From a virus: a stretch of 24,367 nucleotides of DNA. The position numbers were made by a program, and so were the translations under genes. The stretch's first letter is position 1. Every line of letters begins with the position of its first letter. Under the pieces are notes generated by a model that ran no database searches, had not been told where the DNA came from, and saw only the letters and a list, made by a program, of their open reading frames with translations. Where the stretch lies: the IMG/VR virus record IMGVR_UViG_3300031216_000065, positions 1 to 24,367 of that record; one strand, written 5' to 3'. Below, piece by piece: positions 8,461 through 24,260 of the stretch.

Positions 8461-9779
8461 TGGGAGAACAAATCACATTCAGACCTAGAGGAAGAGGATG
8501 CGCGGTGCAATTATGGGATGGAGCTGTGAGCATTACTGAGCCAAGGTTGAAGTTTATAAAGGGGTGGCTGACTGGAGGAACTGACCCAGAGGATGGGAGC
8601 GTAGAGTGTGGTGATGGGGTTTCTAGAGGCTACACGTTAGAGGTCACTAAAGATGAGCTTATAGAGATTATGTATAGGGTGAAGGACGCTGTATATGTGT
8701 CTGGTGAATTTACTTTTGAAGGGGTTGAGCCATATTGGGATCCAGAATGGTCACAGAATGAGCTTATCTCAAGTAACACAATTAAATTTGGATCTACCAC
8801 TCCGCCTGTTAAATTAGTTGAAATGGTATCAGGGGTAGATAGTTACGGGGCTGAATCACACCACTGCATGAGAGGACATCACACTTCCTATCAAATTAAA
8901 GACGCTACAGACACTGGTGCTCCACAGGATAATTTAAGCGATGCTCTCTTGGATTCTATATTTGAGCCGATGTATGAGGTTGGAACGGCGTTAGAAGATT
9001 CTTTTTCTGTAGGTTCTGATCCTTATGAGGTATATGGAAAACTTAGAGTAAGAGATACTATCAGCATGGGCGGGAGTGAATACATTATGTGGTTAAATGT
9101 AGGAGGTCTTGAAAGAGCTCGGTTGGTAGACACACTTCCTACGTTTGAAAATCATTTCGGTTCTGGTGACCCTATGGTTTTTCAATCAAGAGCTGGAGAT
9201 TATAATGTGCCCTACCATAGCGTCCCTTATCCTAGTAGTTTTAGGACAGGGTTTAGTTTGCAGGCAGAGTCCAATAAAGAGGTTAGCCAAACACCTCAGA
9301 CGTTCTATGCCCCTTATCAGCATACAATTATACATCCTGATTACCCAGGTGAACCGACATTCACCGAATACTACGGTGCTGGGCTTGGATTAGAGTTTTC
9401 TGGTAATGTTGGGTGGGTAGATGGTGGCACGGGACATCCATTTGGTGCTGGCAGTAGATTATTTATACAAGTAGATTTCGTTGTGTCTTCAGCCATGGAG
9501 ACTGATTTAGACCAAGAAGAGATTCTTCTTTCTAATGTAGAAGGTAGAAGTATTTTCAGAAACAAATCTCCTGCTGACACTAGATTAGTTCTAGAATTAT
9601 CAGAAGGCAGACAAGTTTCTTGTCCTTTATATTTCGCCACTATATATTTAAATTTTTATATTGACTACAGACATGCGGACGGGGGTGTTGATTGGGTATT
9701 CAAAGCTACTAAATGGTGGGAATACGATGACGGCAAAGGAAACCCAATTTACAAATCAACCACAGGAAAACGAATTTAA
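8460..9779 (+). CDS. Probable distal tail protein (439 aa)
   Basis: 439 residues, beta-rich and acidic, with many aromatic and glycine residues. There is no signal peptide, coiled coil or clear motif. The first 100 residues (I-T-F-R-P-R-G-R-G-C-A-V-Q-L-W-D-G-A and L-K-F-I-K-G-W-L-T-G-G) are the most ordered part. The C-terminus has Y-L-N-F-Y-I-D-Y-R-H-A-D-G-G-V-D-W and K-W-W-E-Y-D-D-G-K-G-N. It is translated from an ATG that overlaps the hub stop by one base, so it is made together with the hub and is probably a tail-tip component or fibre anchor. Codon use looks slightly more AT-rich than in the hub. No family is recognised. Confidence 0.6.
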   Translation: MGEQITFRPRGRGCAVQLWDGAVSITEPRLKFIKGWLTGGTDPEDGSVECGDGVSRGYTLEVTKDELIEIMYRVKDAVYVSGEFTFEGVEPYWDPEWSQNELISSNTIKFGSTTPPVKLVEMVSGVDSYGAESHHCMRGHHTSYQIKDATDTGAPQDNLSDALLDSIFEPMYEVGTALEDSFSVGSDPYEVYGKLRVRDTISMGGSEYIMWLNVGGLERARLVDTLPTFENHFGSGDPMVFQSRAGDYNVPYHSVPYPSSFRTGFSLQAESNKEVSQTPQTFYAPYQHTIIHPDYPGEPTFTEYYGAGLGLEFSGNVGWVDGGTGHPFGAGSRLFIQVDFVVSSAMETDLDQEEILLSNVEGRSIFRNKSPADTRLVLELSEGRQVSCPLYFATIYLNFYIDYRHADGGVDWVFKATKWWEYDDGKGNPIYKSTTGKRI

Positions 9780-10921: not shown

Positions 10922-13324
10922 ATGAATCACTATCATCAAACCAAGTCGATCAAGTCACAAAAGATTGACGAACCTATTGTTCAAAATAAAGCGCAAGACA
11001 GGCTTTTAGAATTATTCAATCGTGAAGAGCTACCTGGAACCGTGAGAGAGAATCTTGCAGGAGCATTATCTGGTAACCTAGCGAGACAGCAGCTCATGTT
11101 TCAAGCGATGATAGATACTACCCCTAGACTTCAGAAGAATCTAGCAGAGGTAGCGGATGCTGTGAAGGGTGCAAAATGGCAGTTCACGGCTAAGAAGATG
11201 AGGGGTGAGGAAGAGCCAAGCAAGGAAGCTATCGAGCGTATGGAGTTCATCGAGGACGCTTTCAAGGACACATCACCAAGCGTTGTTAGGAATGAGAAGA
11301 ACCACAAGCAAGTTGTGCGTGATTTAGTCTATGGATACTATATGGGTCATCACGTAACTGAGATTCATTGGCAAAATAGAGATGGGATATATAATCCCCG
11401 GGCATACAAGTCAGTCCCTCCTAGATTCTACGGATACCCGTTCTTTGATGAAGATGATGACAGGCTCATGTTTGATCCAAGCGGTAGAGAGTCACAAGAA
11501 TACATTGACTTTCCAGAAGATCGTTTCTTGATAGCGATGAACTCAGGACACACTGGACACATGGCGACATCTGCACCATTACGTGCGCTCACAGGTTATT
11601 GGCTGGCTTCTAACTTTGGATTGAAATGGCTCATGTCATTCTCTCAACTCTATGGAGTGCCTTTCCGCTGGGGAACTTACTCAGATGAATTGGGAAAGAA
11701 AGCACTCAGCACAATGCTACAGAACATCGGCTCAACTGGCTGGGCATCTGTCCCGAAAGGAACTGATATTGAGTTTAAGGATGCGGCAAAAGGTGTAGGT
11801 TCACTACCACAGCAGGGGCTTATTGATATGGCTAATGAGGCTTTCGATATTTTCATCCTAGGGCAGACTCTCACATCATCACAAGGTGACACAGGCTCAC
11901 AGGCTCTAGGCAATGTTCATAACGAGGTAAGGCAAGGTGTATTCCAAAAAGTGGGTGACTACGTGGGTGATATACTCAACACGCAGCTGATACCGTCTAT
12001 CTCTAAGCTGAACTATGGAGACGTTGAAAACCTCCCTACTATCGAGCCAGTATTTGAGAAAAAGGAAGATCCTAAGCTACTAGCTGAGAGAGATGCTATG
12101 CTCATCAGCATGGGAATGGAAGTTGATAAGGATTGGCTCTATGATCGTCATGGCGTTCCAATTCCTAAAGATGAGAAGAATATATTTAAACCAGCTTCTA
12201 CTCCGGATGGTGGTCAGGGAGATCCTGACACGGGGGGCGGCAAGCCTCCTATAGAAACAAAGGAGAAAGAGGGTAAAAAAAAGGATAAGGTTAAAGCCGC
12301 GTTTGATCCTGAGCAGGATAGGGGTGATGATGGGAGGTGGATTGATAGGGGCGAGGTTAATGAGAAGATCCAAAGGACGAGGGATTTAATCGCAAACGGG
12401 CGAACAGAAGAGTCAATAATATCTGATTTAAAGTTAGCTTCTGAGGGTGACATTCCCATACCTAAAGACCTCGATGACAAAATAGACGTGCTGGCTTATG
12501 GTTATGCAGATGGTGAAATGATCACCACAGCAACAGAGAATATTGACATATTTTGGACAGATGACTTGGTTAACCCGCAACACTTATTTGACACACAAGG
12601 CATGGATTGGGCAAACTCAGTTGACTTCTCTGAGCCTGTAGAGTTAGGCGTTGATGAGGTCGGAAAACTATACATTGAAGATGGTCATCATAGATGGTTC
12701 GCATCTGGAAAACTAGGGAGAGAAGTGACGGGGCAGATAGTTAAATTCAAAGGGAATCCACTCGTTAAGATAATAAAAGACGGAGTAGCTAACAGAGCGA
12801 AACCTGATTATAAAATAGAAGGCGCATTCAACCCTAACCAAGACAGGGACGAAAACGGGATGTGGACGGACGGGGGCTTAAATGATACTGAGAAGAAAGC
12901 CACGTCAATAATGAGGGAAGGCTACAGAAAAGCCAAAACCCTTTATGATATGCCTATAGATGAGCGTATAAAGCAAGCTATCGAAACGGTTAAAAAAGGA
13001 GGTTATGCGGGTCTATCTAAGGTAGATAAATACGCAGTTTCTCCAATGAAAAACGTAAGAGACAGGGATAATCTGCAAGAGGAATTTGCAGAGCGATTTA
13101 AGAATCATTTAGAAAAACATGAATCAGAGCCATCATACAATGAGGGAGAGTTTTTAGATACACTAAGGAAACACAACGCCCTACTAAGAGCATCCAACGT
13201 AACCCCAGAATCCCTAGAAACCCAGAAGCAATCCATATTCTCAAAGATGGAGCAAGCACTAGAAGACGGGAAACTCCTTTCATGGGAACCGCTGGATGAG
13301 CTGCTTAAATCAACAATAAAATAA
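10922..13324 (+). CDS. Portal protein (DUF935 / Mu gp29-like) with C-terminal modules
   Basis: 800 residues, about 300 longer than a usual Mu-type portal. Residues 1-425 are the portal: L-A-G-A-L-S-G-N-L-A-R-Q-Q, then L-V-Y-G-Y-Y-M-G-H-H-V-T-E-I-H-W, P-L-R-A-L-T-G-Y-W, and F-G-L-K-W-L-M-S-F-S-Q-L-Y-G-V-P-F-R-W, all typical of the DUF935 family. The portal is the 12-fold ring through which DNA enters and leaves the head. A charged Gly/Lys linker (425-460) leads to a motif F-D-P-E-Q-D-R-G-D-D-G-R-W (461-473). A module follows (474-635) with a ParB/sulfiredoxin-like E-D-G-H-H-R-W-F-A-S-G-K-L at about 586-598. A second motif is at 636-648, and a helical module (649-800) ends the protein. No stop or frameshift separates these parts. 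They may be virion-borne cargo. Confidence 0.85.
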   Translation: MNHYHQTKSIKSQKIDEPIVQNKAQDRLLELFNREELPGTVRENLAGALSGNLARQQLMFQAMIDTTPRLQKNLAEVADAVKGAKWQFTAKKMRGEEEPSKEAIERMEFIEDAFKDTSPSVVRNEKNHKQVVRDLVYGYYMGHHVTEIHWQNRDGIYNPRAYKSVPPRFYGYPFFDEDDDRLMFDPSGRESQEYIDFPEDRFLIAMNSGHTGHMATSAPLRALTGYWLASNFGLKWLMSFSQLYGVPFRWGTYSDELGKKALSTMLQNIGSTGWASVPKGTDIEFKDAAKGVGSLPQQGLIDMANEAFDIFILGQTLTSSQGDTGSQALGNVHNEVRQGVFQKVGDYVGDILNTQLIPSISKLNYGDVENLPTIEPVFEKKEDPKLLAERDAMLISMGMEVDKDWLYDRHGVPIPKDEKNIFKPASTPDGGQGDPDTGGGKPPIETKEKEGKKKDKVKAAFDPEQDRGDDGRWIDRGEVNEKIQRTRDLIANGRTEESIISDLKLASEGDIPIPKDLDDKIDVLAYGYADGEMITTATENIDIFWTDDLVNPQHLFDTQGMDWANSVDFSEPVELGVDEVGKLYIEDGHHRWFASGKLGREVTGQIVKFKGNPLVKIIKDGVANRAKPDYKIEGAFNPNQDRDENGMWTDGGLNDTEKKATSIMREGYRKAKTLYDMPIDERIKQAIETVKKGGYAGLSKVDKYAVSPMKNVRDRDNLQEEFAERFKNHLEKHESEPSYNEGEFLDTLRKHNALLRASNVTPESLETQKQSIFSKMEQALEDGKLLSWEPLDELLKSTIK
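12302..12340 (+). repeat. Linker motif 1 (portal residues 461-473)
   Basis: F-D-P-E-Q-D-R-G-D-D-G-R-W, followed by I-D-R-G. It marks the border between the portal core with its charged linker and the ParB-like module. It is nearest to motif 3 in the neighbouring head protein (R-G-D-D-G-R-W in both). Confidence 0.8.
12827..12865 (+). repeat. Linker motif 2 (portal residues 636-648)
   Basis: F-N-P-N-Q-D-R-D-E-N-G-M-W, followed by T-D-G-G. It separates the ParB-like module from the last helical module. It is nearest to motif 4 (R-D-E-N-G-M-W in both). Confidence 0.8.
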
Positions 13325-13325
13325 C

Positions 13326-15965
13326 ATGATACCAGACGCGTTAAAATTATTCCAGCAAAAGGAATCCGTTCCATCTGAAATGCTCACGAAGGATTGGGCA
13401 ATGGTGGATGTATGGACTAAGGAAAGATCCTTCTGGATGGCAGGGGTGGAAGATGTCAATATTCTGCAAGCATTCAGAGATGAGGCTGAGAAGATGGCGG
13501 GTGGCACTAGCTCCGGCAATGAATCCATGAACAGGCTCACTCTCTACCTTGAAAAAATAGGGTATCAGCCAGAGAAAGGTGAAGAGGGATCTATCAAAGA
13601 CTTGAGTTCATGGCGACGCATGAGCGTGGCACTAGATACGAATGTCAGTATGATGCGTGGCTGGGGAATGAGAGAGCGGGCTTTGAATACGTTGAGAATC
13701 TTTCCAGCATGGCAGTTTAGGCGTATATCAGACAAGGAGGAAAAGAGAGAGTGGGCAGCACGTTGGCAAGTAGCCTATGAACTAACAAAGAACTTCCCCG
13801 GAGCAACACCTAGCAGCGGTGATGATGATGCGCCAGGTGCAGCCATGATAGCTCATCCAATTTGGGCGGTGTTGTCTCAGTTTGGCAATCCTTACCCGTT
13901 ATTCGATTGGGGCAGCGGTATGGGAGTCATGAGGGTGAGCAGAAGCAAAGCTAAGAAGATATTTGATTTAGATGATCCTAGAATAAAGGCGATGTGGGAA
14001 ACTAGACCAGTGATGGAGTCACCTAACAAGTCATTACAAGCGAACCCTGCGGTGACGGATGACAAACTAAAGGAAAGTCTAAATAAACGCCTAAAAGGTC
14101 TTGCGAAGTGGGATGGTGATACATTGGTTCATACTGATCCTAACGGCTCGAAACCGTCAAGTCAGGGTGATCTAATAGCATCATGGGATAATATGCCAGA
14201 TGGTTTTGAGACCAAGCAGAAAGACTCCCTTAATACATGGCTAGAAAACCCAGATGCTGAGTATGAATCAGGCGGCGGTATATGGGATGACATCGAGCGA
14301 TTGGCTGAACGGCTTAAACCATCTGAGGAAATTGATCTTTACAAGCAACTACCATTTCTATCAAAAGATGAGAGAGATTCATTCGTTGAGAAGTTCACTA
14401 GAGACGGGTATCAAACTGGATTCAATGCGCCCGCAGAGTCATGGACTAGTAAACTCCTCTCATCTATCAAGGATACGTGGTCAATTCTATTCAAGGCAGA
14501 ATCCACCACTCAGGCGAAAGATGTTAGAGAGCTGGTGAAGCTGTATCATGACAACCCAAACGTGATCAAGAACTCTGAATTTTTATACGTCAAGGGCGTA
14601 GCGATGGAAGTAGTCAAGGCAGATGAGAACACGGCAACTAAAGTGATCACTTTGACGCTCAGAGAGAAGGTGACAGGCTCGGATATTGTGAAGAGTGCCT
14701 TTGACCCTAGACAGTCTAGGGGTGATGATGGGAGATGGGTTGACGAAGATGGTGAAAGTGGTGATAGTGAGGCTATGGATAAGGAATACATGAAAGCCGT
14801 CGAGTCTGGTGACGTGGAGGCTCAGCAGGCTATGGTGGATGATAGAGCTAAGGAGATGGGGTATAATTTATCTCACAGAAGAAAAAAAGAGGATGAAGAT
14901 CCTAGAGAAACAGGTCACGTTATACAGTTTACCGATTATGATAATTATGACGAAAATTTGAATTACGGGGATTATAATTACCTCATTAAATCTAAAGATT
15001 TGCAAGATGTTCCTGATTGGGCGGTTGATTGGTATGTTGATGAAAGTGGTTTTATGGATTCATACAAAGAATTCAACCCTAACGAATCAAAAGATGATGT
15101 ATGGCGTGAGGCGTGGGATGGCATGAATCCTAAAAACATAGTGGATTCAGCACAATTTTGGGATGATGGACAAGGAGTTTCTGCTTTTTGGAGTGAAAAC
15201 GAAAGCAGACTACTAAAAGATAATATCAAAGGATTCACTACGCCTAACGGGGCTGTTATATTTGACAGCCATGAGTTGAATATAAAATCAGCAGACCCCA
15301 TAACCTACGACGACAACGGCAAAGTAATACCACTCAGCGAGCGGTTCAACGAAGACCTAGACGACATCAGATCAGCGTTCAACCCTGAGCAAGCTAGGGA
15401 TGAGAATGGCATGTGGGTTGACGAGGGTGGTGAAAGTAGTGATAGTGATGGCGTGACTAAAGAAAAAACTCAAAAGTTCTCAAATTATGACGATCTTTAT
15501 AATTCGATGAATAACGATTTAATAGATCAAGGTAAATACGGGGCGGTATTCAATGCTGATGAGGATGGTTTTATATTAAAAGTATCTAACGGTGATGACG
15601 CTTATGAGGCTTATATCAAGTTCATACAAAATGAAAAACCAAGCGGGACTTTATACCCGAAAGTATCAGACTCATGGAATTTAGATGACGGGAGTTTTTG
15701 TTGCTTAGTTGAAGAGGTAACACCAATAATTAAAAGGGGTGATGCTTACAATATTGAAGAAATGCTTAATCTTATATCTATGGGTGAATCTCTTCCTAGT
15801 AACTATGCTGATCTAGCTTCATCCGTGAGTGTCAATGAGACAACATACAGCAACTTTTTAAAGTCTTTAGAGTCTCTAGGTGATGATGATATCCATGTGG
15901 GTAACATAGGGACAAGGGAAAATGGTGAGCTAGTCATCTTTGATCCAGTGAAACCGAAAAGATAA
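13326..15965 (+). CDS. F-like minor head protein (MuF family) with C-terminal cargo modules
   Basis: 879 residues, roughly twice the core size. Residues 1-458 are the head part: W-T-K-E-R-S-F-W-M-A-G-V near the start, then D-T-N-V-S-M-M-R-G-W-G-M-R-E-R-A-L, and G-N-P-Y-P-L-F-D-W-G-S-G-M-G-V at about 196-210. The last corresponds to the conserved Y-P-P-F-x-F-x-S-G-M stretch of Mu-like head proteins. Motif 3 (459-471) opens a module (472-684) that ends in I-K-S-A-D-P-I-T-Y-D-D-N-G and V-I-P-L-S-E-R-F, known from phage polyvalent proteins. Motif 4 (685-697) opens the last module (698-879), which is kinase-like: G-K-Y-G-A-V-F (736-742), Lys752, Asp855-I-H-V-G-Asn860 and Asp873. MuF proteins enter the head with DNA and in some phages carry toxin domains. 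It starts one base after the portal stop. Confidence 0.8.
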   Translation: MIPDALKLFQQKESVPSEMLTKDWAMVDVWTKERSFWMAGVEDVNILQAFRDEAEKMAGGTSSGNESMNRLTLYLEKIGYQPEKGEEGSIKDLSSWRRMSVALDTNVSMMRGWGMRERALNTLRIFPAWQFRRISDKEEKREWAARWQVAYELTKNFPGATPSSGDDDAPGAAMIAHPIWAVLSQFGNPYPLFDWGSGMGVMRVSRSKAKKIFDLDDPRIKAMWETRPVMESPNKSLQANPAVTDDKLKESLNKRLKGLAKWDGDTLVHTDPNGSKPSSQGDLIASWDNMPDGFETKQKDSLNTWLENPDAEYESGGGIWDDIERLAERLKPSEEIDLYKQLPFLSKDERDSFVEKFTRDGYQTGFNAPAESWTSKLLSSIKDTWSILFKAESTTQAKDVRELVKLYHDNPNVIKNSEFLYVKGVAMEVVKADENTATKVITLTLREKVTGSDIVKSAFDPRQSRGDDGRWVDEDGESGDSEAMDKEYMKAVESGDVEAQQAMVDDRAKEMGYNLSHRRKKEDEDPRETGHVIQFTDYDNYDENLNYGDYNYLIKSKDLQDVPDWAVDWYVDESGFMDSYKEFNPNESKDDVWREAWDGMNPKNIVDSAQFWDDGQGVSAFWSENESRLLKDNIKGFTTPNGAVIFDSHELNIKSADPITYDDNGKVIPLSERFNEDLDDIRSAFNPEQARDENGMWVDEGGESSDSDGVTKEKTQKFSNYDDLYNSMNNDLIDQGKYGAVFNADEDGFILKVSNGDDAYEAYIKFIQNEKPSGTLYPKVSDSWNLDDGSFCCLVEEVTPIIKRGDAYNIEEMLNLISMGESLPSNYADLASSVSVNETTYSNFLKSLESLGDDDIHVGNIGTRENGELVIFDPVKPKR
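14700..14738 (+). repeat. Linker motif 3 (head protein residues 459-471)
   Basis: F-D-P-R-Q-S-R-G-D-D-G-R-W, followed by V-D-E-D-G-E. It lies at nearly the same distance from its start codon (residue 459) as motif 1 in the portal (residue 461). It opens the polyvalent-protein-like module. Confidence 0.8.
15378..15416 (+). repeat. Linker motif 4 (head protein residues 685-697)
   Basis: F-N-P-E-Q-A-R-D-E-N-G-M-W, followed by V-D-E-G-G-E. It follows D-D-I-R-S-A and opens the kinase-like module. Confidence 0.8.
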
Positions 15966-16765: not shown

Positions 16766-17743
16766 ATGTTAATCAAAGCATCATTTAGCCAAGAAGTAAC
16801 GCAGGAGGGTAAGTCAATGGTATTCATTCCAGAAGGGACTCACACCATCACCCCTAGCGTGAACGGTAAGGCAAAAGAAATTACTGTTAGAGTTTCGCCT
16901 AAGGATGGCGAGAATATAGCCCAGAGGATTCAAGCCTCACTAGAATCAAGGAATCAGAAAAATAAGGTTCGGGCTATCTTTGACTTTGACCACAAGGACA
17001 CGGGACCAGCGGCGGCACTTCCTCAGAGGTTTTTCTATGAAGCTGGTAAAGGCATCATGGTTGAACGTGAGCTTACAGGAGCAGGGTCTAAGGCTATTAA
17101 AGCTAAGGACTACTCCTATTTCTCCCCGGTCTTCCTGATCAATAAACAGGGCATCCCTAGCGGTCTTCCAGATAAGGGACCATTAGGCGCACTAGTCAAC
17201 GATCCCGCTTTTAGAGATATTGAACGTATCGCAGCTAAACAAGCTGAAACCACAAAACCAGAAACCATGAATGAACTAGTAAAATGCGGTCTTCTCACTG
17301 AGGACGAATCCGCCAAAACAAACGCAGGGGAAATCGCAAGCAAGCGCGTTTCCGCAATGACGGCCGACAACGATAAGGTCACAGAACTCAATAAGCAGAT
17401 CGAAGCACTTGAAGCTGAGAAGAAAGCACTAGGGGAAACCGTAGAGGCATCTAACAAGGTCATTCTTGACGCTAAAGAAGCTAACGCTGATTCACTCATC
17501 GTAGCAGCAGTGGCAGACGGTCGCATCTCCGCTAAAGACGAAGACAGCAAGACATTCTGGAAAGATTCAATCCTTTCTAACGAGTCAGCAGTCAAAGCTC
17601 TTAGCGCACTCCCTAAGAAAAACGAGGGAATCACTAAACCAATCGTTCAAGCTGGTAACGGCTCACAAGCGAAGGAAGACGAACTAACCGGGCTTGACGC
17701 TGTAGAAGCATCACTCGCCAAAGAAATCGAAAACTCTAACTAA
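16766..17743 (+). CDS. Prohead protease and scaffold (Mu gpI-like)
   Basis: 325 residues from the ATG. A GTG two codons earlier is possible, but the -10-like box and spacing favour the ATG. The N-terminal half is the protease: V-R-A-I-F-D-F-D-H at about 66-74 and A-K-D-Y-S-Y-F-S-P-V-F at about 111-121 are the conserved parts of the Mu I-like peptidase family. It is followed by P-L-G-A-L-V-N-D-P-A-F. The C-terminal half (from about 168) is helical, with a coiled coil (V-T-E-L-N-K-Q-I-E-A-L-E-A-E-K-K-A-L) and an acidic end, as expected of a scaffold. In Mu one gene yields both protease and scaffold from an internal start, and the same is proposed here. The capsid gene follows after six bases. 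Confidence 0.8.
   Translation: MLIKASFSQEVTQEGKSMVFIPEGTHTITPSVNGKAKEITVRVSPKDGENIAQRIQASLESRNQKNKVRAIFDFDHKDTGPAAALPQRFFYEAGKGIMVERELTGAGSKAIKAKDYSYFSPVFLINKQGIPSGLPDKGPLGALVNDPAFRDIERIAAKQAETTKPETMNELVKCGLLTEDESAKTNAGEIASKRVSAMTADNDKVTELNKQIEALEAEKKALGETVEASNKVILDAKEANADSLIVAAVADGRISAKDEDSKTFWKDSILSNESAVKALSALPKKNEGITKPIVQAGNGSQAKEDELTGLDAVEASLAKEIENSN
17267..17743 (+). CDS. Internal-start scaffold protein (candidate)
   Basis: An in-frame ATG inside the protease gene (M-N-E-L-V-K-C-G-L-L) is preceded by AAACC, the same context that precedes most start codons here (AAAAAACCATG). Translation from it gives 158 residues: the coiled coil and the acidic C-terminus without the protease. Mu makes its scaffold Z from within gene I, so the parallel is direct. 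It is a nested start in the same frame and not a separate gene. Confidence 0.45.
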   Translation: MNELVKCGLLTEDESAKTNAGEIASKRVSAMTADNDKVTELNKQIEALEAEKKALGETVEASNKVILDAKEANADSLIVAAVADGRISAKDEDSKTFWKDSILSNESAVKALSALPKKNEGITKPIVQAGNGSQAKEDELTGLDAVEASLAKEIENSN

Positions 17744-17749
17744 AAAACC

Positions 17750-18694
17750 ATGAAAAACACATTACTAGATCTCACTAAGAGAACAGCAGGTGCAAAAGAA
17801 GTAGGTCTCATTGAAGAGAATCTACAATACGCACCAGAAGTAGCGATGGTCCCAGCTAAGACCATTGCAGGGACATCATACACCACACTTGCAAGAGTAG
17901 GACTACCAACAGTAGGCTTCACTTCTGTAAACCAAGGTGTCACCGCAAGCAAGTCAACTTATAAGAATGCGCTAGTTCAGACATTCCCGCTTCGTTCACT
18001 CGTTAAGGTTGACAAGGCACTCGTAAACGCAGATTCATCACTCCCATCACTTCAGACAGACGAAGCAAGTGGAGTAATGGAAGCCGCTCTACGTCATATA
18101 GGTCGTCAATTCTACTACGGTCAAAACGCAGGTGGTGACTCAGAAGGTTCAATCGGTCTTCAGGATGTTGTAGGTGCTGAACAGACCTTCGATGCTTCTG
18201 GAACTACTGCCGACACTGGATCATCTGTTTACCTTGTTAAATTCGGACGTAAGGACGTTCAAATGGTATTCGGCAACAACTCCACACTTTCACTTGCTCC
18301 ATTCCGTGACGAGACTCTTACAGACTCAGACGGCGGTGAATTTGACGGTTCAGTTGCTCACCTTACAGCTTGGCAGGGTGTCCAATGCACAAACCCTAAT
18401 TCAGTGGTTCGTATTGCTAACCTTACAGAAGATTCTGGCAAAGGTCTAACAGACGCGATTCTTGCGAAAGCTCTAGCACTATTCCCTAGCGGAGTAACTC
18501 CAGACGCTATCTTTATGACTCGTAGAACTCGCTCACAGCTTCAAGCTGACAGAGCTACCCGCACCGCTACACGCGGCAACGGTAAAAACGGTTCAGTAGG
18601 TGGTGGTTCAACTTACTCCCCTACTCCAACTGACTTTGAAGGAATCGCTTTGACTCCTACAGATTCAATTCTCAACACTGAGCCATTAATCTAA
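17750..18694 (+). CDS. Major capsid protein (Mu gpT-like, HK97 fold)
   Basis: 314 residues, the size of Mu-type capsid proteins. It lies directly after the protease/scaffold and before the cement protein. The sequence is low in Cys and Trp and has the mixed pattern of an HK97 fold. A helical N-arm (L-L-D-L-T-K-R-T-A-G-A-K-E-V) precedes a part with V-N-Q-G-V-T-A-S-K-S-T-Y-K-N and F-P-L-R-S-L-V-K-V-D-K. The long backbone helix is A-S-G-V-M-E-A-A-L-R-H-I-G-R-Q-F-Y-Y-G. Further on are F-M-T-R-R-T-R-S-Q-L-Q-A-D and F-E-G-I-A-L-T-P-T-D-S-I, typical late elements. Codon choice is noticeably biased (ACA, GCA, CTT, GGT), as in a highly expressed gene. The leader is AAAAAACCATG. Confidence 0.85.
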   Translation: MKNTLLDLTKRTAGAKEVGLIEENLQYAPEVAMVPAKTIAGTSYTTLARVGLPTVGFTSVNQGVTASKSTYKNALVQTFPLRSLVKVDKALVNADSSLPSLQTDEASGVMEAALRHIGRQFYYGQNAGGDSEGSIGLQDVVGAEQTFDASGTTADTGSSVYLVKFGRKDVQMVFGNNSTLSLAPFRDETLTDSDGGEFDGSVAHLTAWQGVQCTNPNSVVRIANLTEDSGKGLTDAILAKALALFPSGVTPDAIFMTRRTRSQLQADRATRTATRGNGKNGSVGGGSTYSPTPTDFEGIALTPTDSILNTEPLI

Positions 18695-18721
18695 TCACCT
18701 AACCCATAGAAAACTAAAATC

Positions 18722-19123
18722 ATGAGCACTAATTTCTCACGTAATCTAAAAGATAAAGATAAAGAAGTAACAGCTACTCTAGCGCAAGCTGGTGTTAATT
18801 CACCAAGCATTGACCTAGAGCAGATCGAAGGCGGAGACATCGAGCAGATCGTAGGTCAGCTAGTAGTCCCAGTCACAGCAGGAATCACCGATGCAAAAGT
18901 CCTCACGTTCAAACTAGAGGACAGCGCAGACAATTCGACATTCGCAGCCATTGATCCACTTATCAGCACCACAGCAACAGGTGCGGGCGGTAACGGAACC
19001 CCGGCACTCGATACTCGTTTCAGATTCCCACCAGTTACTCGCCGCTATGTCCGTATCGCTCAGACAGCGACTAGTTCATCAGGCACATTCACCAATGATC
19101 TAACATTCAGATTATTGTTCTAG
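18722..19123 (+). CDS. Capsid cement / decoration protein (Bbp16-like)
   Basis: 133 residues, beta-rich. The pattern V-L-T-F-K-L-E-D-S-A-D-N-S-T-F-A-A-I, then D-T-R-F-R-F-P-P-V-T-R-R-Y-V-R-I-A and a final strand (L-T-F-R-L-L-F) matches capsid cement proteins of the Bbp16 type. Those have a jelly-roll-like fold and bind at the capsid surface. It sits 27 bases after the capsid gene, where such proteins usually lie. It is followed by a terminator, so the capsid-cement pair ends a transcription unit. A head fibre protein is the alternative. Confidence 0.65.
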   Translation: MSTNFSRNLKDKDKEVTATLAQAGVNSPSIDLEQIEGGDIEQIVGQLVVPVTAGITDAKVLTFKLEDSADNSTFAAIDPLISTTATGAGGNGTPALDTRFRFPPVTRRYVRIAQTATSSSGTFTNDLTFRLLF

Positions 19124-19150
19124 CACATTTGTTGTCATAATAAAAAACCA

Positions 19151-19190
19151 AGTCACCTCGCGCTTTTTTCATATTTTGCGCGGGGTGGCT
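19151..19190 (+). terminator. Rho-independent terminator after the capsid genes
   Basis: A 13-bp stem (19151-19163 with 19178-19190, two G-U pairs) encloses a T-rich loop of 14 bases. ACTTTTC follows. It lies in the 80-base gap after the cement gene and should limit transcription from the strongly expressed capsid genes into the connector genes. The tail of the hairpin runs into the leader of the next gene. Confidence 0.7.
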
Positions 19191-19203
19191 ACTTTTCAAA
19201 ATC

Positions 19204-19623
19204 ATGCCTTGGATCTCACTCACTAAAGAACACATTCAATCTAGGTTGGCTAGTCACGAACTAGACGCAATCGAAGATACGGGCGGTGGCTCAGGTGATC
19301 GTTTATCGGGCATTATAGAGCAAGTCACATTTCTTGTGCGCTCAAAAGTCGCAGGGTGTCATAAGAACATTCTGGGAGCAACAGGCACTATTCCAGATGA
19401 GTGTCTTCACGCGGCGGCGACGTTAGCAAAACACGACATCAGGGCATCACTAGGATCTAATACAGAAGATACTGAGTTGATGAGAGATGAATATAGAAAC
19501 GCAAACCAATTTTTAGATAAGGTCGCTACGTGCGACATAGGAATCAACGATACAGGTAACGCTGAAACCGTTGATGAGGCAGAATCAGGATGTTACGGGG
19601 GGGATGCTACACTTGTATTTTAA
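19204..19623 (+). CDS. Head-tail connector (gp6 / DUF1320-like)
   Basis: 139 residues. The N-terminus (M-P-W-I-S-L-T-K-E-H-I-Q-S-R-L-A-S-H-E-L) is the usual opening of small connector proteins that bind under the portal. The helices that follow (I-I-E-Q-V-T-F-L-V-R-S-K-V, C-L-H-A-A-A-T-L-A-K-H-D-I-R-A-S-L) and a last helix (M-R-D-E-Y-R-N-A-N-Q-F-L-D-K-V-A) complete the helical bundle. In Mu the equivalent gene (gp36) lies just after the capsid genes, as here. The C-terminus contains Cys residues and Gly-Gly but no known motif. It overlaps the next start by one base. Confidence 0.65.
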   Translation: MPWISLTKEHIQSRLASHELDAIEDTGGGSGDRLSGIIEQVTFLVRSKVAGCHKNILGATGTIPDECLHAAATLAKHDIRASLGSNTEDTELMRDEYRNANQFLDKVATCDIGINDTGNAETVDEAESGCYGGDATLVF

Positions 19624-20051
19624 TGAGTAAGTTTCTCGACATAGCAGACGCAATGAAAACCGCTATTGAATCAGTGGTTGAGACTACTGACATCAAAGTT
19701 GTGGTTGATCGTCAATCCAATTTACAAAGCCATTTTGATCAGCACATCGGCAAAGTAAAAGCTGGGGTAGCCATAATCAAGTTCAACAGCTCATCAAGCA
19801 CTAGCGATGATGCAGAGGGACCACGAATGAACGGTAAATACACGATTACCATCGTAGGTTACGCAGTCCTAAGAGCCGGTAAGACGCTACTAGATGACAT
19901 CGTAGAAACTATCTGCAAGAAACTCCATCACTGGAAAGATGTAACGACTAACCACTGCCAGAACGAGGCCTATGTCACCAATCTGCAAGTGGTAGAGGAC
20001 GGTAAACACATAGCCTACCAAATTTCACTAAAGAAAGTCATTCAACTCTAA
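19623..20051 (+). CDS. Tail terminator-like protein
   Basis: 142 residues from the ATG that overlaps the connector stop (TAATG). An in-frame extension upstream would run through the connector gene and is not used. The order is a helix (L-D-I-A-D-A-M-K-T-A-I-E-S-V-V), strand (I-K-V-V-V-D-R-Q), strand (G-V-A-I-I-K-F-N), strand (G-K-Y-T-I-T-I-V-G-Y), helix (L-L-D-D-I-V-E-T-I-C-K-K-L-H-H-W) and final strands (A-Y-Q-I-S-L-K-K-V). This agrees with the alpha/beta fold of tail terminator proteins and with Mu gp37-like proteins in this position. The protein should end tail-tube growth and join the tail to the head. Confidence 0.6.
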   Translation: MSKFLDIADAMKTAIESVVETTDIKVVVDRQSNLQSHFDQHIGKVKAGVAIIKFNSSSSTSDDAEGPRMNGKYTITIVGYAVLRAGKTLLDDIVETICKKLHHWKDVTTNHCQNEAYVTNLQVVEDGKHIAYQISLKKVIQL

Positions 20052-20059
20052 CACAAACC

Positions 20060-20269
20060 ATGAGCGATAAAAAAGAATCACCAAAGAAAGCACCAGCTAA
20101 AATAGCTGATGAAGTCCTATTAAAATGCACAGTTCTAAAGCAAGCCGATGGTAAGCCCGTTCTTATGGGAACTATGTGGTGCGGGTCAGGAGCTAAGACT
20201 ATCATGACTGAATCAAAAGCCAAAGCAGCGGAAAAACTAGGATGGGTTAAAATCAACGGCATCGCTTAA
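20060..20269 (+). CDS. Small conserved-looking protein between connector and tube (69 aa)
   Basis: 69 residues. A lysine-rich N-terminus (S-D-K-K-E-S-P-K-K-A-P-A-K) precedes a compact part with V-L-L-K-C-T-V-L, G-K-P-V-L-M-G and A-A-E-K-L-G-W-V-K-I-N. The order of a strand, a polar turn, a strand and a C-terminal helix resembles small proteins found between tail terminator and tail tube in Mu-like phages, but no name can be given. The leader is ACAAACCATG, eight bases after the terminator gene. It is probably part of the same operon. Confidence 0.55.
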   Translation: MSDKKESPKKAPAKIADEVLLKCTVLKQADGKPVLMGTMWCGSGAKTIMTESKAKAAEKLGWVKINGIA

Positions 20270-20302
20270 TCAATTTCACCTAAAACCAAACACTAAAAAA
20301 CC

Positions 20303-20845
20303 ATGAACGAAAAACTAATACTCGGAACATTTATCTCATTTGCTGAAACTGGAACCACCATTGACTCAACAACAGTAGGACCAGCAGCATTTCCAGATGA
20401 CGAACCTACAACAAATTGGGCATCCATCGGTTGCGTGCTAGAATCTGACTGGGAGACTGAGAAGGAAACTGACACGGACTATTGCCCTAATGAAGCAGGA
20501 GGTTACTCTAAGACGGAAGACGAGCAGACAGTAAGAGACATCATCAAATTCAAGGTTCGTGAATCAAGCGAACTATTTATGCGAATGATGCTCGGATTTC
20601 CTGCAATCATTGTAGATGACGCGGCTCAAGTTCCATTCACCGAAACTAGAAGATTCATCGAAGGATGGATTAAAGTGCAAGGCGTAGGTGAAGACGGGGA
20701 TGACAGAGTAGTCATGAAAGTTTACGGCAAGCTCAAACTAGATGAGAACCCTAAGTGGTCTAAAGACCCTACTAAGCCAGGTTACAAGTTTGAAGTAGCA
20801 GCAAACGCAATCGCAACAGCGATACCAAGCAACATCATCGCTTAA
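20303..20845 (+). CDS. Tail tube protein
   Basis: 180 residues, beta-rich with one helix (S-E-L-F-M-R-M-M-L-G-F), typical of siphophage tail tube proteins. Visible parts are L-I-L-G-T-F-I-S-F-A-E-T-G, a segment with W-A-S-I-G-C-V-L-E-S-D-W, strand pairs around R-D-I-I-K-F-K-V-R-E, R-F-I-E-G-W-I-K-V-Q-G-V and R-V-V-M-K-V-Y-G-K-L-K-L. The C-terminus is T-A-I-P-S-N-I. The leader is CTAAAAAACCATG. No sheath gene precedes it, so a non-contractile tail is inferred. The tape measure is not downstream as usual but 16 kb upstream. Confidence 0.6.
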   Translation: MNEKLILGTFISFAETGTTIDSTTVGPAAFPDDEPTTNWASIGCVLESDWETEKETDTDYCPNEAGGYSKTEDEQTVRDIIKFKVRESSELFMRMMLGFPAIIVDDAAQVPFTETRRFIEGWIKVQGVGEDGDDRVVMKVYGKLKLDENPKWSKDPTKPGYKFEVAANAIATAIPSNIIA

Positions 20846-20854
20846 TCTAACATT

Positions 20855-22132
20855 ATGGCAATAGGCGAGAGAATTATCAGGGCAAAGCTGGATTTATCTC
20901 TAGCCCCGTCATCACTACTCAGATTTGAAACGTGGCAAGCAAACGCTACCACGTTTCAGATCGGAGTCTTTAGCGGAACCACGGTTGAGAGTGTCAGCGA
21001 TGTCCAGAGTATAAATTGCCGAGTCATGGCAGGTCGTCTCAGCGCGGTCGTTCTCGCTGATAAAACCATCACCAGTTTTGACGACACGTTAGCATCTTCT
21101 ACATGGACAGACGCATCTAAGCAACACGGGGTTTTCGACTTCACGAATGCAGAGATGAATCTTGCGGTTGAGGGTAGCGGCTCAGAGTTCTGGATTGTTT
21201 TTACTGCTATACTTTCAAGCGGGGAAGAGAGAACCCTGCAAGCTGGCAACCTCATGATTTATGAGGATAACAACGAGGCAGCAGACCCAGTTCCTGAGAA
21301 CACAGGCACAGCTCTAACCCTAGAGCAAGGTGACGCTCGCTACATGGCACTCGGAAGCGGTGGAAGCGGAGACCTAATCTCAACAAATAACCTATCAGAC
21401 GTAGCAGATGCGCCCACAGCACTAACGAATCTTGGCGCTGAACCAGCGAAAGGCGCGGATGATAACTTCGTGACAGATGCGGAAAAAACAAAGCTATCAA
21501 GCGTAGAAACAGGAGCGACAGCAGATCAAACAGGGTCAGAAATAAAATCGGCTTATGAAAGTGAAACAGATACCAATGCTTATACGGATGCAGAGAAATC
21601 AAAGCTTGCGGCACTACTAGGTGGAGCGAATAAGATAGACGCAACCGCAGCGCCAACCGTAAACGACGACTCTGCAAATACTTCAGAAAACGGAGCGTTT
21701 GAAATCGGGTCAATATGGGTAGATGCAACAGCGGATGAGGCTTACAGGTGCGTAGATTCGACAGCCACATCAGCGGTATGGGTTAATACAACATTAGACT
21801 CTACTGAACTCGCGGCGGTAGCATTTAGCGGTTCAGCTTCCGACTTAATCACAGGAACACTCCCATCATCAGCAGGGGCGTTGATGGATTCTGAGGTCAC
21901 GAACCTGGCGCAAGTTAAAGCATTTAGTTCTGCCGATTACGAACCAGCGAAAGGCGCGGATGATAACTTTGTCACAGATGCGGAAAAGGTGAACATATCT
22001 TTAATAGTTAAAAGCGACATCACAGGCGTTACAGGAGCAGACGCAATCGCCAACATGATGAGCCTCACACAAGCTGAATATGACGCAATAGTCACGCCTG
22101 ACGCATCAACCCTATACGCAATAACAGACTGA
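20855..22132 (+). CDS. Tail fibre protein
   Basis: 425 residues. An N-terminal beta part (1-140) should attach to the tail. Next comes L-E-Q-G-D-A-R-Y-M and [17 protein letters not shown], a repeat known from many phage fibres. It is followed by [22 protein letters not shown] and [11 protein letters not shown], the classical coiled/triple-beta fibre motif. [16 protein letters not shown] occurs twice, the second time close to the end. The last residues ([10 protein letters not shown], then L-Y-A-I-T-D) form the kind of tip seen on receptor-binding fibres. It lies ten bases after the tube gene and one base before the leucine-rich-repeat protein, which may extend the same fibre. Confidence 0.75.
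21440..21486 (+). repeat. Fibre direct repeat, copy A
   Basis: 47 bases that recur at 21941-21987 with two mismatches, in the same reading frame. They encode [16 protein letters not shown]. The DNA identity is higher than the protein needs and suggests a fairly recent duplication within the fibre. Confidence 0.8.
21941..21987 (+). repeat. Fibre direct repeat, copy B
   Basis: Partner of the copy at 21440-21486, 501 bases (167 codons) downstream. Recombination between the copies would remove 167 residues in frame and shorten the fibre. Confidence 0.8.
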
Positions 22133-22133
22133 T

Positions 22134-23555
22134 ATGCCAACTACAGGAAAACTATATTTAGGATCAACGCTAATTTCTGGCGGCGGGGAAGCGGAAGCAT
22201 GGGTGAGAAATCCAGATTGGATAGCTATGCCAACACTCACAGCAGGGGTAGATGAAAAGGTTTATGGCATCATTGCGGTAGGCACTGGTAATTCTAACTT
22301 CGTGAGCTTTGAATTTGAAGGAGCGTATAACGTGGATTGGGGAGATGGAAACAGTGAAGACGTGGCTAACTCAGTCGATGCTCAGCACAACTTTGACTAT
22401 GCAGACCTAAGCTCTAGCACAGAGTTTGCTTTAGGTAGTTTTGGCGATACTCACAGACAAGCATTAGTGACGATTACGCCGCAGGCTGGGCAGTCTCTCA
22501 CTAAGGTTAATTTTAATAAGAAGCACACTCAATCAGGACTTAATGATTACCGAACACCATGGCTAGATATAGCTATTTCAGCGGCTAATTGCACATCTTT
22601 AACGGTTGGATCTACATCTGGAAATCTCGCCCTATTAGAGCGGTGCAATGTGGTAGATGTGGGTGTCCTCACTAGCGCATCATTAATGTTTCAGGGTTGC
22701 TCATCCCTGCAATCAGTTCCTTTGTTCGATTTATCGTCAGCGACTAACGCATCATACATGTTTAGATATTGCTCATCCCTGCAATCAGTTCCGTTATTCG
22801 ATTTATCGTCAGTGACTGACGCAGCAAACATGTTTCAGGATTGCTCATCCCTGCAATCAACTCCGTTATTCGATTTATCGTCAGCGACTAACGCATCAAT
22901 AATGTTTCAGGGTTGCTCATCCCTGCAGTCAGTTCCGTTATTTGATCTTTCTTCAGCGACTAACGCATCATACATGTTTAGATATTGCTCATCCCTGCAA
23001 TCAGTTCCGTTATTCGATTTATCGTCAGTGACTGACGCATCATACATGTTTGATGCTTGCTCATCCATGCAATCAGTTCCGTTATTTGATTTATCTTCAG
23101 CGACTAACACATCATACATGTTTCGAAAATGCTCATCCATGCAATCAACTCCGTTATTTGATTTATCGTCAGCGACTGACGCATCATCAATGTTTGATGT
23201 TTGCTCATCCCTGCAATCAGTTCCTTTGTTCGATTTATCGTCAGCGACTACTACAGCATACATGTTTAGATATTGCTACGCCCTGCAATCAGTTCCGTTA
23301 TTTGATCTTTCGTCAGCGACCACGACAACAAGCATGTTTCAGTCTTGCGATAGTTTACAATCAGGAGCAACAACAGGGCTGACTGTATCCTTGAGCTACG
23401 ATGACCTTAAACTCTCAGCGGTAGAGATTGACCGCATATTTACCAACCTAGGAACTGCCAGCGGGACACAGACTATCACAGTAACTAACAACTGGGGGAG
23501 CGCAACATGCGATCCAACCATCGCCACAGCGAAAGGCTGGACGGTAGCTAATTAA
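22134..23555 (+). CDS. Leucine-rich-repeat (DUF285/BspA-like) receptor-binding protein
   Basis: 473 residues. A short fibre-like start (T-G-K-L-Y-L-G-S-T-L-I) leads to a PKD-like beta domain with V-D-W-G-D-G at about 65-70. Residues 185-400 are nine tandem 24-residue repeats, M-F-x-x-C-S-S-L-Q-S-[VT]-P-L-F-D-L-S-S-[AV]-T-[ND]-A-S-x. These belong to the DUF285/BspA type of leucine-rich repeat known from bacterial surface proteins and phage tips. A tenth, partial repeat leads to a C-terminal cap that ends in A-T-A-K-G-W-T-V-A-N. The two residues after M-F change from repeat to repeat (QG, RY, QD, DA, RK, DV), as expected at a binding face. It lies next to the fibre gene and is probably the adhesin that meets the host surface. 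Confidence 0.75.
   Translation: MPTTGKLYLGSTLISGGGEAEAWVRNPDWIAMPTLTAGVDEKVYGIIAVGTGNSNFVSFEFEGAYNVDWGDGNSEDVANSVDAQHNFDYADLSSSTEFALGSFGDTHRQALVTITPQAGQSLTKVNFNKKHTQSGLNDYRTPWLDIAISAANCTSLTVGSTSGNLALLERCNVVDVGVLTSASLMFQGCSSLQSVPLFDLSSATNASYMFRYCSSLQSVPLFDLSSVTDAANMFQDCSSLQSTPLFDLSSATNASIMFQGCSSLQSVPLFDLSSATNASYMFRYCSSLQSVPLFDLSSVTDASYMFDACSSMQSVPLFDLSSATNTSYMFRKCSSMQSTPLFDLSSATDASSMFDVCSSLQSVPLFDLSSATTTAYMFRYCYALQSVPLFDLSSATTTTSMFQSCDSLQSGATTGLTVSLSYDDLKLSAVEIDRIFTNLGTASGTQTITVTNNWGSATCDPTIATAKGWTVAN
22686..23333 (+). repeat. Nine tandem 72-bp repeats
   Basis: Each unit starts with ATGTTT and encodes 24 residues. Units 1-3 and 4-6 partly form a higher-order 216-bp duplication: unit 1 and 4 encode the same peptide, and units 2 and 5 differ at only a few bases near their ends. 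The remaining units differ mostly at bases 7-12 and in the last nine. Copy number could change by unequal recombination without breaking the frame. Confidence 0.9.
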
Positions 23556-23569
23556 ACTATAAAAAAATC

Positions 23570-23953
23570 ATGAAAGGATTCTACAAAAAAGAAGAAAGCG
23601 GAGCAATAGCTCAAGCTAACGAGATACACACACCAGATGGCTCATTTAACGAAGAGAATAAAAGTGATGTGGTTGACGGCTGGGAGTGGTTCGATACCGC
23701 TGAGGAAGCTTATGCTAAGTTTGCCGCGCCAAAGGGAGTGACGAAGCTCACCATCATGCTCAGGCTTGATGCTCTAGGTAAATGGGACACGTTCAAAGGC
23801 TTGCTCACTCAACTCCCACAACTCACACAAGACGCATGGGCATTGGCTCAAGACGTTAAAGCAGATGATCCCATGTTCTTGCAATATTCAGCAACTCTAA
23901 AAGGTGCCTTGAGTCTAACAGATGAGCAATTCGATACTCTACTAACACCATAG
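23570..23953 (+). CDS. Protein after the receptor-binding gene, possible fibre accessory (127 aa)
   Basis: 127 acidic residues. The N-terminus (M-K-G-F-Y-K-K-E-E-S-G-A-I-A-Q-A-N-E-I) looks like a short beta region. The middle has D-G-W-E-W-F-D-T-A-E-E-A-Y-A-K-F. The rest is helical (L-R-L-D-A-L-G-K-W-D-T-F-K-G-L-L, then D-A-W-A-L-A-Q-D-V-K-A-D-D-P-M-F). No signal peptide or membrane segment is seen. Genes in this place often serve as fibre assembly proteins, but I do not recognise one. The leader is A-rich (TAAAAAAATCATG), without Shine-Dalgarno. Confidence 0.55.
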   Translation: MKGFYKKEESGAIAQANEIHTPDGSFNEENKSDVVDGWEWFDTAEEAYAKFAAPKGVTKLTIMLRLDALGKWDTFKGLLTQLPQLTQDAWALAQDVKADDPMFLQYSATLKGALSLTDEQFDTLLTP

Positions 23954-23960
23954 ATGCATA

Positions 23961-24260
23961 ATGCGATTAACAATTCCAGACAACTATGAAGGAGGTGCAA
24001 GTCTCCCTAAATTTTACCGAAACCACATAGAAAGATGCTATCCAAGTTGGGTGATCATTTACATAGACAGAGCAGGAAGAGTCCACGATTGGCTCACAGA
24101 CAGATACCCAGATCAGAAGAGAAACAACCGCAAGATATTTAAACTACTACTAGAAAAATATAACATACCTAAGACAATAATCCGCAAGCTGTGCTTTGGT
24201 TTATGGGTTTACGATCACTCACCAAAAATAATTCAAAAACTACTACAAAAAACATCATGA
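23961..24260 (+). CDS. DUF1353-like phage protein
   Basis: 99 residues. The order G-G-A-S-L-P-K-F, then R-A-G-R-V-H-D-W-L, followed by a basic helix (D-Q-K-R-N-N-R-K-I-F-K-L-L-L) matches the DUF1353 family. There, a D-G-A-S-I-P segment and an H-D-x-L segment are the conserved elements. Its biochemical role is not established; members occur near lysis and tail genes. The start is seven bases after the preceding stop. The stop overlaps the next ATG (ATGA), so the gene is coupled to a possible lipoprotein, a pairing that could belong to a lysis cassette beyond the window. Confidence 0.65.
   Translation: MRLTIPDNYEGGASLPKFYRNHIERCYPSWVIIYIDRAGRVHDWLTDRYPDQKRNNRKIFKLLLEKYNIPKTIIRKLCFGLWVYDHSPKIIQKLLQKTS

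Follow-up and report, generated by a model that had tools for sequence, protein, structure and literature searches.

An exchangeable, probable tail-tip adhesin with a known LRR repeat array in a tailed-phage sequence

The viral sequence analysed here (the window, IMG/VR record IMGVR_UViG_3300031216_000065, 24,367 nt) encodes, directly after a tail fibre gene, a 473-aa protein that carries nine tandem repeats of 24 amino acids. Comparison with related phage loci makes it reasonably probable that this protein is a tail-tip adhesin that can be exchanged and that binds through an LRR domain. We infer its presence in the virion, its position at the tip of the fibre, its binding of a receptor, and the contact of a variable strip of residues with that receptor. 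The array itself belongs to an ordinary, known repeat family in an informative setting: the gene lies in a cassette that has been exchanged, together with half of the fibre gene, relative to a near-identical phage (L003; loci are numbered with an L throughout). The features of the region are as follows.

20855..22132, + strand: 425-aa tail fibre gene, directly upstream of the adhesin ORF (PHROG tail fiber, 5e-15)
21487..24231, + strand: cassette exchanged relative to L003, which has unrelated 1.6-kb DNA in its place
21941..21997, + strand: second copy of a 16-residue motif inside the fibre gene (91% identical to L003 4480-4536)
22064..22126, + strand: Phage_tail_C (tail tip) domain, fibre C-terminus (PF24243, 1.5e-8)
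22134..23555, + strand: 473-aa ORF, DUF285 / BspA-type LRR (PARCEL-repeat) protein, probable tail-tip adhesin (PF03382, PF13306, TIGR02167, AlphaFold2)
22182..22673, + strand: N-terminal region ahead of the array, with a WGDG (PKD-like) motif common to phage homologues (alignments)
22686..23333, + strand: nine 72-nt (24-aa) tandem units (TRF, unit alignment, codon shuffles)
22737..22823, + strand: 87-nt tract with an exact duplicate 216 nt further downstream (most recent multi-unit duplication)
22953..23039, + strand: second copy of the 87-nt tract (exact repeat comparison)
23570..23953, + strand: 127-aa ORF in the cassette (N-terminal and C-terminal parts match different neighbours elsewhere)
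23961..24260, + strand: 99-aa ORF in the cassette (no relative among the fetched loci)

Profile searches assign the array to a known repeat type. The protein matched the Pfam families PF03382 (DUF285; 2.2e-37, 127.9 bits against a cut-off of 25) and PF13306 (BspA-type LRR_5; 3.5e-14, above cut-off) as well as the NCBIfam model TIGR02167 (PARCEL repeat; 2.6e-22, 78.1 bits against a cut-off of 30). An AlphaFold2 model calculated from 30 sequences, namely the window protein and 29 homologues, reached a pLDDT of 92.5 and a pTM of 0.88, with residues 1-16 below 50, and it predicts with confidence that the repeats form an LRR solenoid. The best solved structural match of the model was 4fs7, an LRR protein of Bacteroides ovatus (Z 23.0, rmsd 3.5, 349 residues, 19% identity), which was also the top PDB match by sequence. 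DSSP assigned a bridge at unit residue 21 in all nine units of the model and a strand at residues 10-15 in the ninth. Viral structural matches bore the names 'Bacterial surface protein 26-residue repeat', 'PKD domain-containing protein' and 'BspA family', and it is from these names that the PKD-like label of the WGDG region was taken. Within that region W69-G72 was invariant or almost so in two homologue alignments.

The nine consecutive units occupy exactly 22686-23333, all in frame and each starting with ATG TTT (M-F), and a partial tenth unit begins with M-F at 23334. Their consensus is M-F-x-x-C-S-S-L-Q-S-V-P-L-F-D-L-S-S-A-T-x-x-x-x. TRF returned 9.0 copies at period 72 (score 847) and 3.1 copies at period 216 (score 938), and the mean pairwise identity of the units, 82.6% against 29.7% (maximum 33.3%) in 2,000 codon shuffles, excludes chance as the origin of the repeats. 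Coordinates, TRF and shuffle test therefore agree with the nine in-frame 72-bp repeats described in an earlier reading of the window (the initial annotation). Its wording 'nearly identical' was a little strong for these clear repeats, since unit pairs share 72-97% of their nucleotides and 63-100% of their residues. The 216-bp higher-order duplication that it had noticed between units 1-2 and units 4-5 was recovered as 87 exact nucleotides at +216; units 2 and 5 are 97.2% identical, and units 1 and 4 agree in all 24 encoded residues. The recent growth that it had deduced applies to this tract only. Mean silent divergence between units is pS 0.23, so that the 87-nt tract alone looks recent and most of the array's growth is not. 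Likewise, the suggestion that the two residues after each M-F vary most held for residue 4, the most variable position in the window (six residues across nine units), and failed for residue 3, which with three types is level with residue 21 and slightly behind residue 24. Between units of the window pN/pS was 1.47 at residues 3, 4 and 21-24, a grouping picked after the window had been inspected, and 0.27 at the rest.

We compared the window with L003, which was found by a search with the window fibre and lies on a 35-kb contig (L083 and L084 are the same contig, and it was counted once). The two phages are 99.2% identical over window positions 16961-21486 and then continue in unrelated DNA, until homology resumes from about 24250 for the window's last 136 nt at 97% identity. 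Fibre residues 1-163 are identical in both. In the interval between, the window carries the C-terminal half of its fibre, the DUF285 gene and the ORFs of 127 and 99 aa, while L003 carries the remainder of its own longer fibre, which totals 626 aa, and a 115-aa ORF. The 99-aa ORF had no relative among the fetched loci. A profile search of the 35-kb L003 record gave no DUF285 match, in a run that matched DUF285 in three of four records. The same search found DUF285 in none of 13 records related to the window by major capsid protein (48-65%), several of which are short fragments; control genomes gave no match there either. At the left edge of the exchange lies the motif coding for 16 residues that is present twice in the window's fibre, a plausible crossover anchor. 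Phage tail fibres are modular and exchange their C-termini, with a conserved N-terminal part, a replaced host-recognition part and homologous boundaries. The window cassette resembles such an exchange in all three respects and differs from the ordinary case in that its module also holds a separate LRR adhesin gene.

These two phages differ in a second tail-region gene as well (window 8460-9779; L286 167-1165 in the L003 phage). Its first 50 residues or so and its ending WWEYDDGKGNPIYKSTTGKRI are common to both; between them, where the window has about 1.1 kb, the L003 phage has about 0.77 kb of different DNA (439 versus 332 aa). The product of this gene is another candidate host-recognition protein. 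This pattern of conserved ends around a replaced middle would fit a phage whose main receptor-binding protein is the 8460-9779 product, with the DUF285 protein as an accessory adhesin that might, for instance, attach loosely to polysaccharide or mucus. We regard that arrangement as conceivable, if on balance doubtful, given that the 8460-9779 gene had no match in Pfam or PHROG and that the DUF285 cassette is exchanged too. It is not exclusive of a role for the DUF285 protein as a tail-tip adhesin.

We determined the fraction changed at each unit residue over 64 aligned units from nine homologous pairs, three of an original 12 pairs (L140/L199, L119/L120 and L149/L160) having been dropped as cluster repeats. 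Residues 3, 4, 6 and 23 changed most (0.47, 0.56, 0.47 and 0.55); the fraction was 0.42 at residue 24 and 0.36 at residue 21, against 0.00 at residue 5 and 0.03 at residues 12 and 13. Taken together, these six residues (3, 4, 6, 21, 23 and 24) had a mean change of 0.47 versus 0.15 elsewhere, which none of 5,000 phase rotations reached, with the proviso that only residues 3-4 had been named beforehand, that 6, 21, 23 and 24 were chosen after the data had been seen, and that residue 7 (0.38), as fast as residue 21, lies outside the set. The proposal to compare residues 3-4 with the rest of the unit in related phages was thus borne out, both being among the fastest.

Rapid change of this kind is what a passive spacer or structural tail element would also display if its variable residues were an unconstrained surface and the cassette moved with the fibre for assembly reasons. 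At the six variable residues pN/pS was 0.66-1.32 in seven pairs, and at residues 3-4 it was 0.90 when pooled over 12 pairs; values around or below 1 do not prove positive selection, and relaxed constraint could also give them. The same residues are moreover variable across the family generally, as unconstrained surface positions would be. We nevertheless consider a passive spacer unlikely, because the gene is replaced together with the C-terminal half of the fibre, the part that usually carries host recognition, and because the interior of the array can diverge faster than the rest of the gene even at silent sites. The latter was seen between two allele types, those of L140 and L200. In the loci L194 and L203, which represent them, the gene ends are 95-100% identical and the array falls to 73%. 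Between L140 and L200, silent sites diverge by 0.035 outside the array and by 0.19-0.26 within it, and a position-by-position comparison gives 72-85% identity for units 7-11, which have been replaced in place, and 90-100% for the other units. Since silent divergence is raised inside the array, the comparison points to recombination of the array interior with another array at constant length.

An alignment-based scan gave at least 314 confirmed stretches related to the window protein, of which the best 80 were kept as loci. At 70 of these 80 a same-strand gene lay upstream within 400 bp. Once near-duplicates had been left out, 65 of the 70 upstream genes were scanned: 13 matched collagen-type tail fibres, four Phage_tail_C and three Mtd_N, the domain at the N-terminus of the major tropism determinant; these sets may overlap, and at least 44 of the 65 had no tail-related Pfam match. 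A reverse transcriptase (RVT_1) that might indicate a diversity-generating retroelement was found in neither of the two records searched (L003 and L114), in a search that matched three of 14 control genomes. The pair of fibre tip and adhesin seen in the window recurs in L125, L126 and L163, where the upstream fibre tip is 63% identical to that of the window over 51 aa and the adhesin N-terminus reads MPTTTGKIYLGSTL, versus MPTTGKLYLGSTL in the window; weaker fibre-tip matches occur in L188, L149, L154 and L160. The 127-aa ORF of the cassette had 38 matching loci (E up to 1e-3), and the match started -91 to 272 bp from the end of the DUF285 gene in all 33 computed loci (three of the 38 were not computed, and three contigs are counted twice among the 33); two loci (L085 and L087) matched the ORF and lacked DUF285. 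In its N-terminal part the ORF is similar to genes that immediately follow other DUF285 genes, and in its C-terminal part to a gene of the related phage L085 that comes after a collagen-like fibre.

Exchange of these genes is visible between other phages too. L142 and L197 have 2,560 nt in common with L203 at 93% identity, a block that comprises the end of the fibre gene, a 119-aa ORF, the DUF285 gene and the start of the next gene. Between the 7.7-kb loci of L197 and L203 blastn gave no match outside the block, and between the longer L142 and L203 it gave two short ones (169 and 74 nt); tblastx added weaker matches in the fibre genes of L142/L197 and L203 and one short match downstream. L273 and L277 have 3.1 kb in common at 90% and no blastn match outside. 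Because the L197/L203 and L273/L277 blocks lie between largely dissimilar flanks, such DUF285 genes move as cassettes, and the left edge of such a cassette can lie inside the fibre gene. For the window's own gene, searches with peptide patterns found no direct relative in viral contigs and one distant Gordonibacter locus in genome contigs; neither a second copy of the gene nor a near relative of the window carrying it was found in viral contigs, genome contigs or the L003 record.

The window's gene, which the initial annotation had called a receptor-binding protein, thus does what such a gene would be expected to do: it follows a tail-fibre gene, it is exchanged with the C-terminal half of that fibre, and its homologues recur beside fibre genes. 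From this we infer the binding itself. It is decidedly unlikely that the product is instead a surface protein of infected or lysogenic cells (lysogenic conversion), as bacterial DUF285/BspA proteins might lead one to think. Plasmid-borne members, where annotated, are indeed entered as BspA family leucine-rich repeat surface proteins, and PARCEL repeats have been described in surface lipoproteins (Roske et al. 2010, PMC2996958, passages). A location inside a fibre cassette directly after the fibre gene, repeated by the homologues, speaks against this alternative.

The initial annotation had further proposed that the number of repeats changes quickly. No gain or loss of units was found among ten intact L140-type alleles (88.5-100% identity) or seven L119-type alleles (86.3-100% identity), that is in none of 17 intact alleles in two clusters, whereas phase variation would have the number differ between near-identical genomes; several of these alleles are identical copies, so the independent comparisons are few. 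The count excluded L204 and L205 for their interrupted frames and L283, L281, L282 and L285 as partial or distant; L206-L214, L279, L280 and L284, which are more distant, fall outside the 86-100% group. In L204, L205 and L199 the L140-type gene has an interrupted or shifted frame, through either real inactivation or assembly error. The number was not constant in all relatives either. One 24-aa unit separates L130 from L157 (93% identity; L157 is cut off at a contig end), L178 from L184 (56%) and the window from L114 (51%); L119 and L120 (77%) are two units apart, L146 and L172 (65%) differ by 25 aa, and L119 and L280 (65%) differ by two units and a 53-aa block. The number was kept in L149/L154 (87%), L149/L160 (78%), L179/L191 (77%), L118/L122 (75%) and L123/L124 (71%). 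Unit number thus changes by whole units and at a slow pace, chiefly between more distant relatives. Many arrays among the best 80 of the at least 314 homologues also had TRF periods of 144, 216 or 288 nt, which is consistent with block-wise duplication of units, although TRF can favour multiples of a basic period.

All sampled loci are metagenomic contigs, and seven of the best 80 (of at least 314) homologues stop short at the 3' end, each of them inside the array. Arrays of this kind therefore break assemblies, and every unit count carries that risk. It is nonetheless highly unlikely that the repeat number of the window is an assembly artefact: its units can be told apart at 72-97% identity, with a single tract of more than 50 exact nucleotides, and the reading frame is intact on both sides of the array. 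Most improbable is the quick switching of repeat number by slippage or recombination, tuning host range, that was originally proposed; an 87-nt exact repeat is long enough for homologous recombination and the truncated L157 lies exactly one unit from L130, but the 17 close alleles are constant and the silent divergence between units is about 0.2.

For the tail-tip adhesin that we favour, these results suggest the following mechanism. The adhesin would be produced directly after the tail fibre, and its probable place is the tip of that fibre. The conserved M, F, C, L, P, L, F and T would hold the solenoid together, and residues 21, 23, 24, 3, 4 and 6 would form a variable strip round the M-F-x-x-C corner that is likely the binding face. 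Specificity could then change on three scales. At the largest, recombination inside the fibre gene would swap a whole cassette of fibre C-half, adhesin and small downstream genes; at the middle scale, the middle of the array would be rewritten by recombination with other arrays, unit number being kept; and at the smallest, the variable residues would undergo point change. Gain or loss of whole 24-aa units would be slower than any of these. More tentatively, and with much more doubt than belief, we suggest that LRR tail-tip adhesins form a common pool among tailed phages, a recombining repertoire in which cassettes hop between dissimilar phages via the fibre gene and array interiors are reshuffled at constant length, re-sorting the hypervariable M-F-x-x-C strip. 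If this were true, phages would possess in this repertoire a counterpart of the LRR-based variable lymphocyte receptors, with its variable strip away from the L-x-x-V-P-L core stretch.

DUF285-like repeats are found in several named phages: in tail protein I (gp35) of Klebsiella phage ST16-OXA48phi5.4, in Synechococcus phages S-CBWM1 (putative tail protein) and S-SKS1, in gp103 of Sphingomonas phage PAU and in Vibrio phage vB_VhaM_pir03. Some of these DUF285/LRR proteins lie inside or among annotated tail genes, as in the window, and none is close to the window protein (about 24-39% identity among the matches listed). In the part of the pir03 gene table available, DUF285 proteins are entered without function (PMC7765460). 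Titles, openings of abstracts and passages of papers found in the open-access PMC literature contained no assignment of a receptor-binding role to phage DUF285 proteins. A CASP16 paper (PMC12750041) was set aside as irrelevant, since in the relevant passages its LRR and its tail fibre are separate targets. DUF285/BspA repeats of unassigned function in phage genomes and exchangeable tail fibres are known separately; linking them gives a testable role to many phage proteins that carry no annotation beyond 'BspA family leucine-rich repeat surface protein' or 'hypothetical'. The variable residues mark where specificity should lie. To a specialist, cassette exchange and array rewriting will be useful rather than startling.

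The closest bacterial systems share the repeat. BspA-type LRR proteins of Bacteroides, such as 4fs7, have an LRR solenoid like that predicted here; the window protein differs in being phage-borne and in having the WGDG N-terminal domain and a KGWTV-type C-terminal ending common to phage homologues. PARCEL / DUF285 / TIGR02167 surface proteins carry the same repeat by profile, and according to passages of the PARCEL paper they too have variable numbers of tandem units, combine conserved hydrophobic with variable hydrophilic residues, and are mobile between genomes (PMC2996958). The unit given in those passages is 25 aa long, against 24 aa in the window, and the proteins are bacterial membrane proteins, in contrast to a repeat protein in a phage tail-fibre cassette; the paper covers bacterial and eukaryotic genomes, and in the text available the word 'phage' occurs only in a reference title. 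It also describes a dyad signature. In the coding DNA of the window's array the best dyads had 10/15 and 10/12 pairs and were not significant (with synonymous shuffles as the null, P 0.43 and 0.33; with codon-column permutations, P 0.23 and 0.08), by a method other than the paper's MEME. A 118-aa antisense open frame runs through the array (window 22907-23263, - strand) and is probably a by-product of codon composition; opposite-strand ORFs are mentioned for PARCEL arrays too (PMC2996958, in part).

The window also encodes a Mu-type portal (3.5e-74). Because its nearest relative among named phages is that of Akkermansia phage Chantilly (30.7%), the host may be Verrucomicrobial. The portal ORF (800 aa) and the ORF that follows it (879 aa), together at 10922-15965, contain recurring segments of the type SAFDPxQxRxDxGRWxD, which in the portal ORF are located beyond the portal domain.
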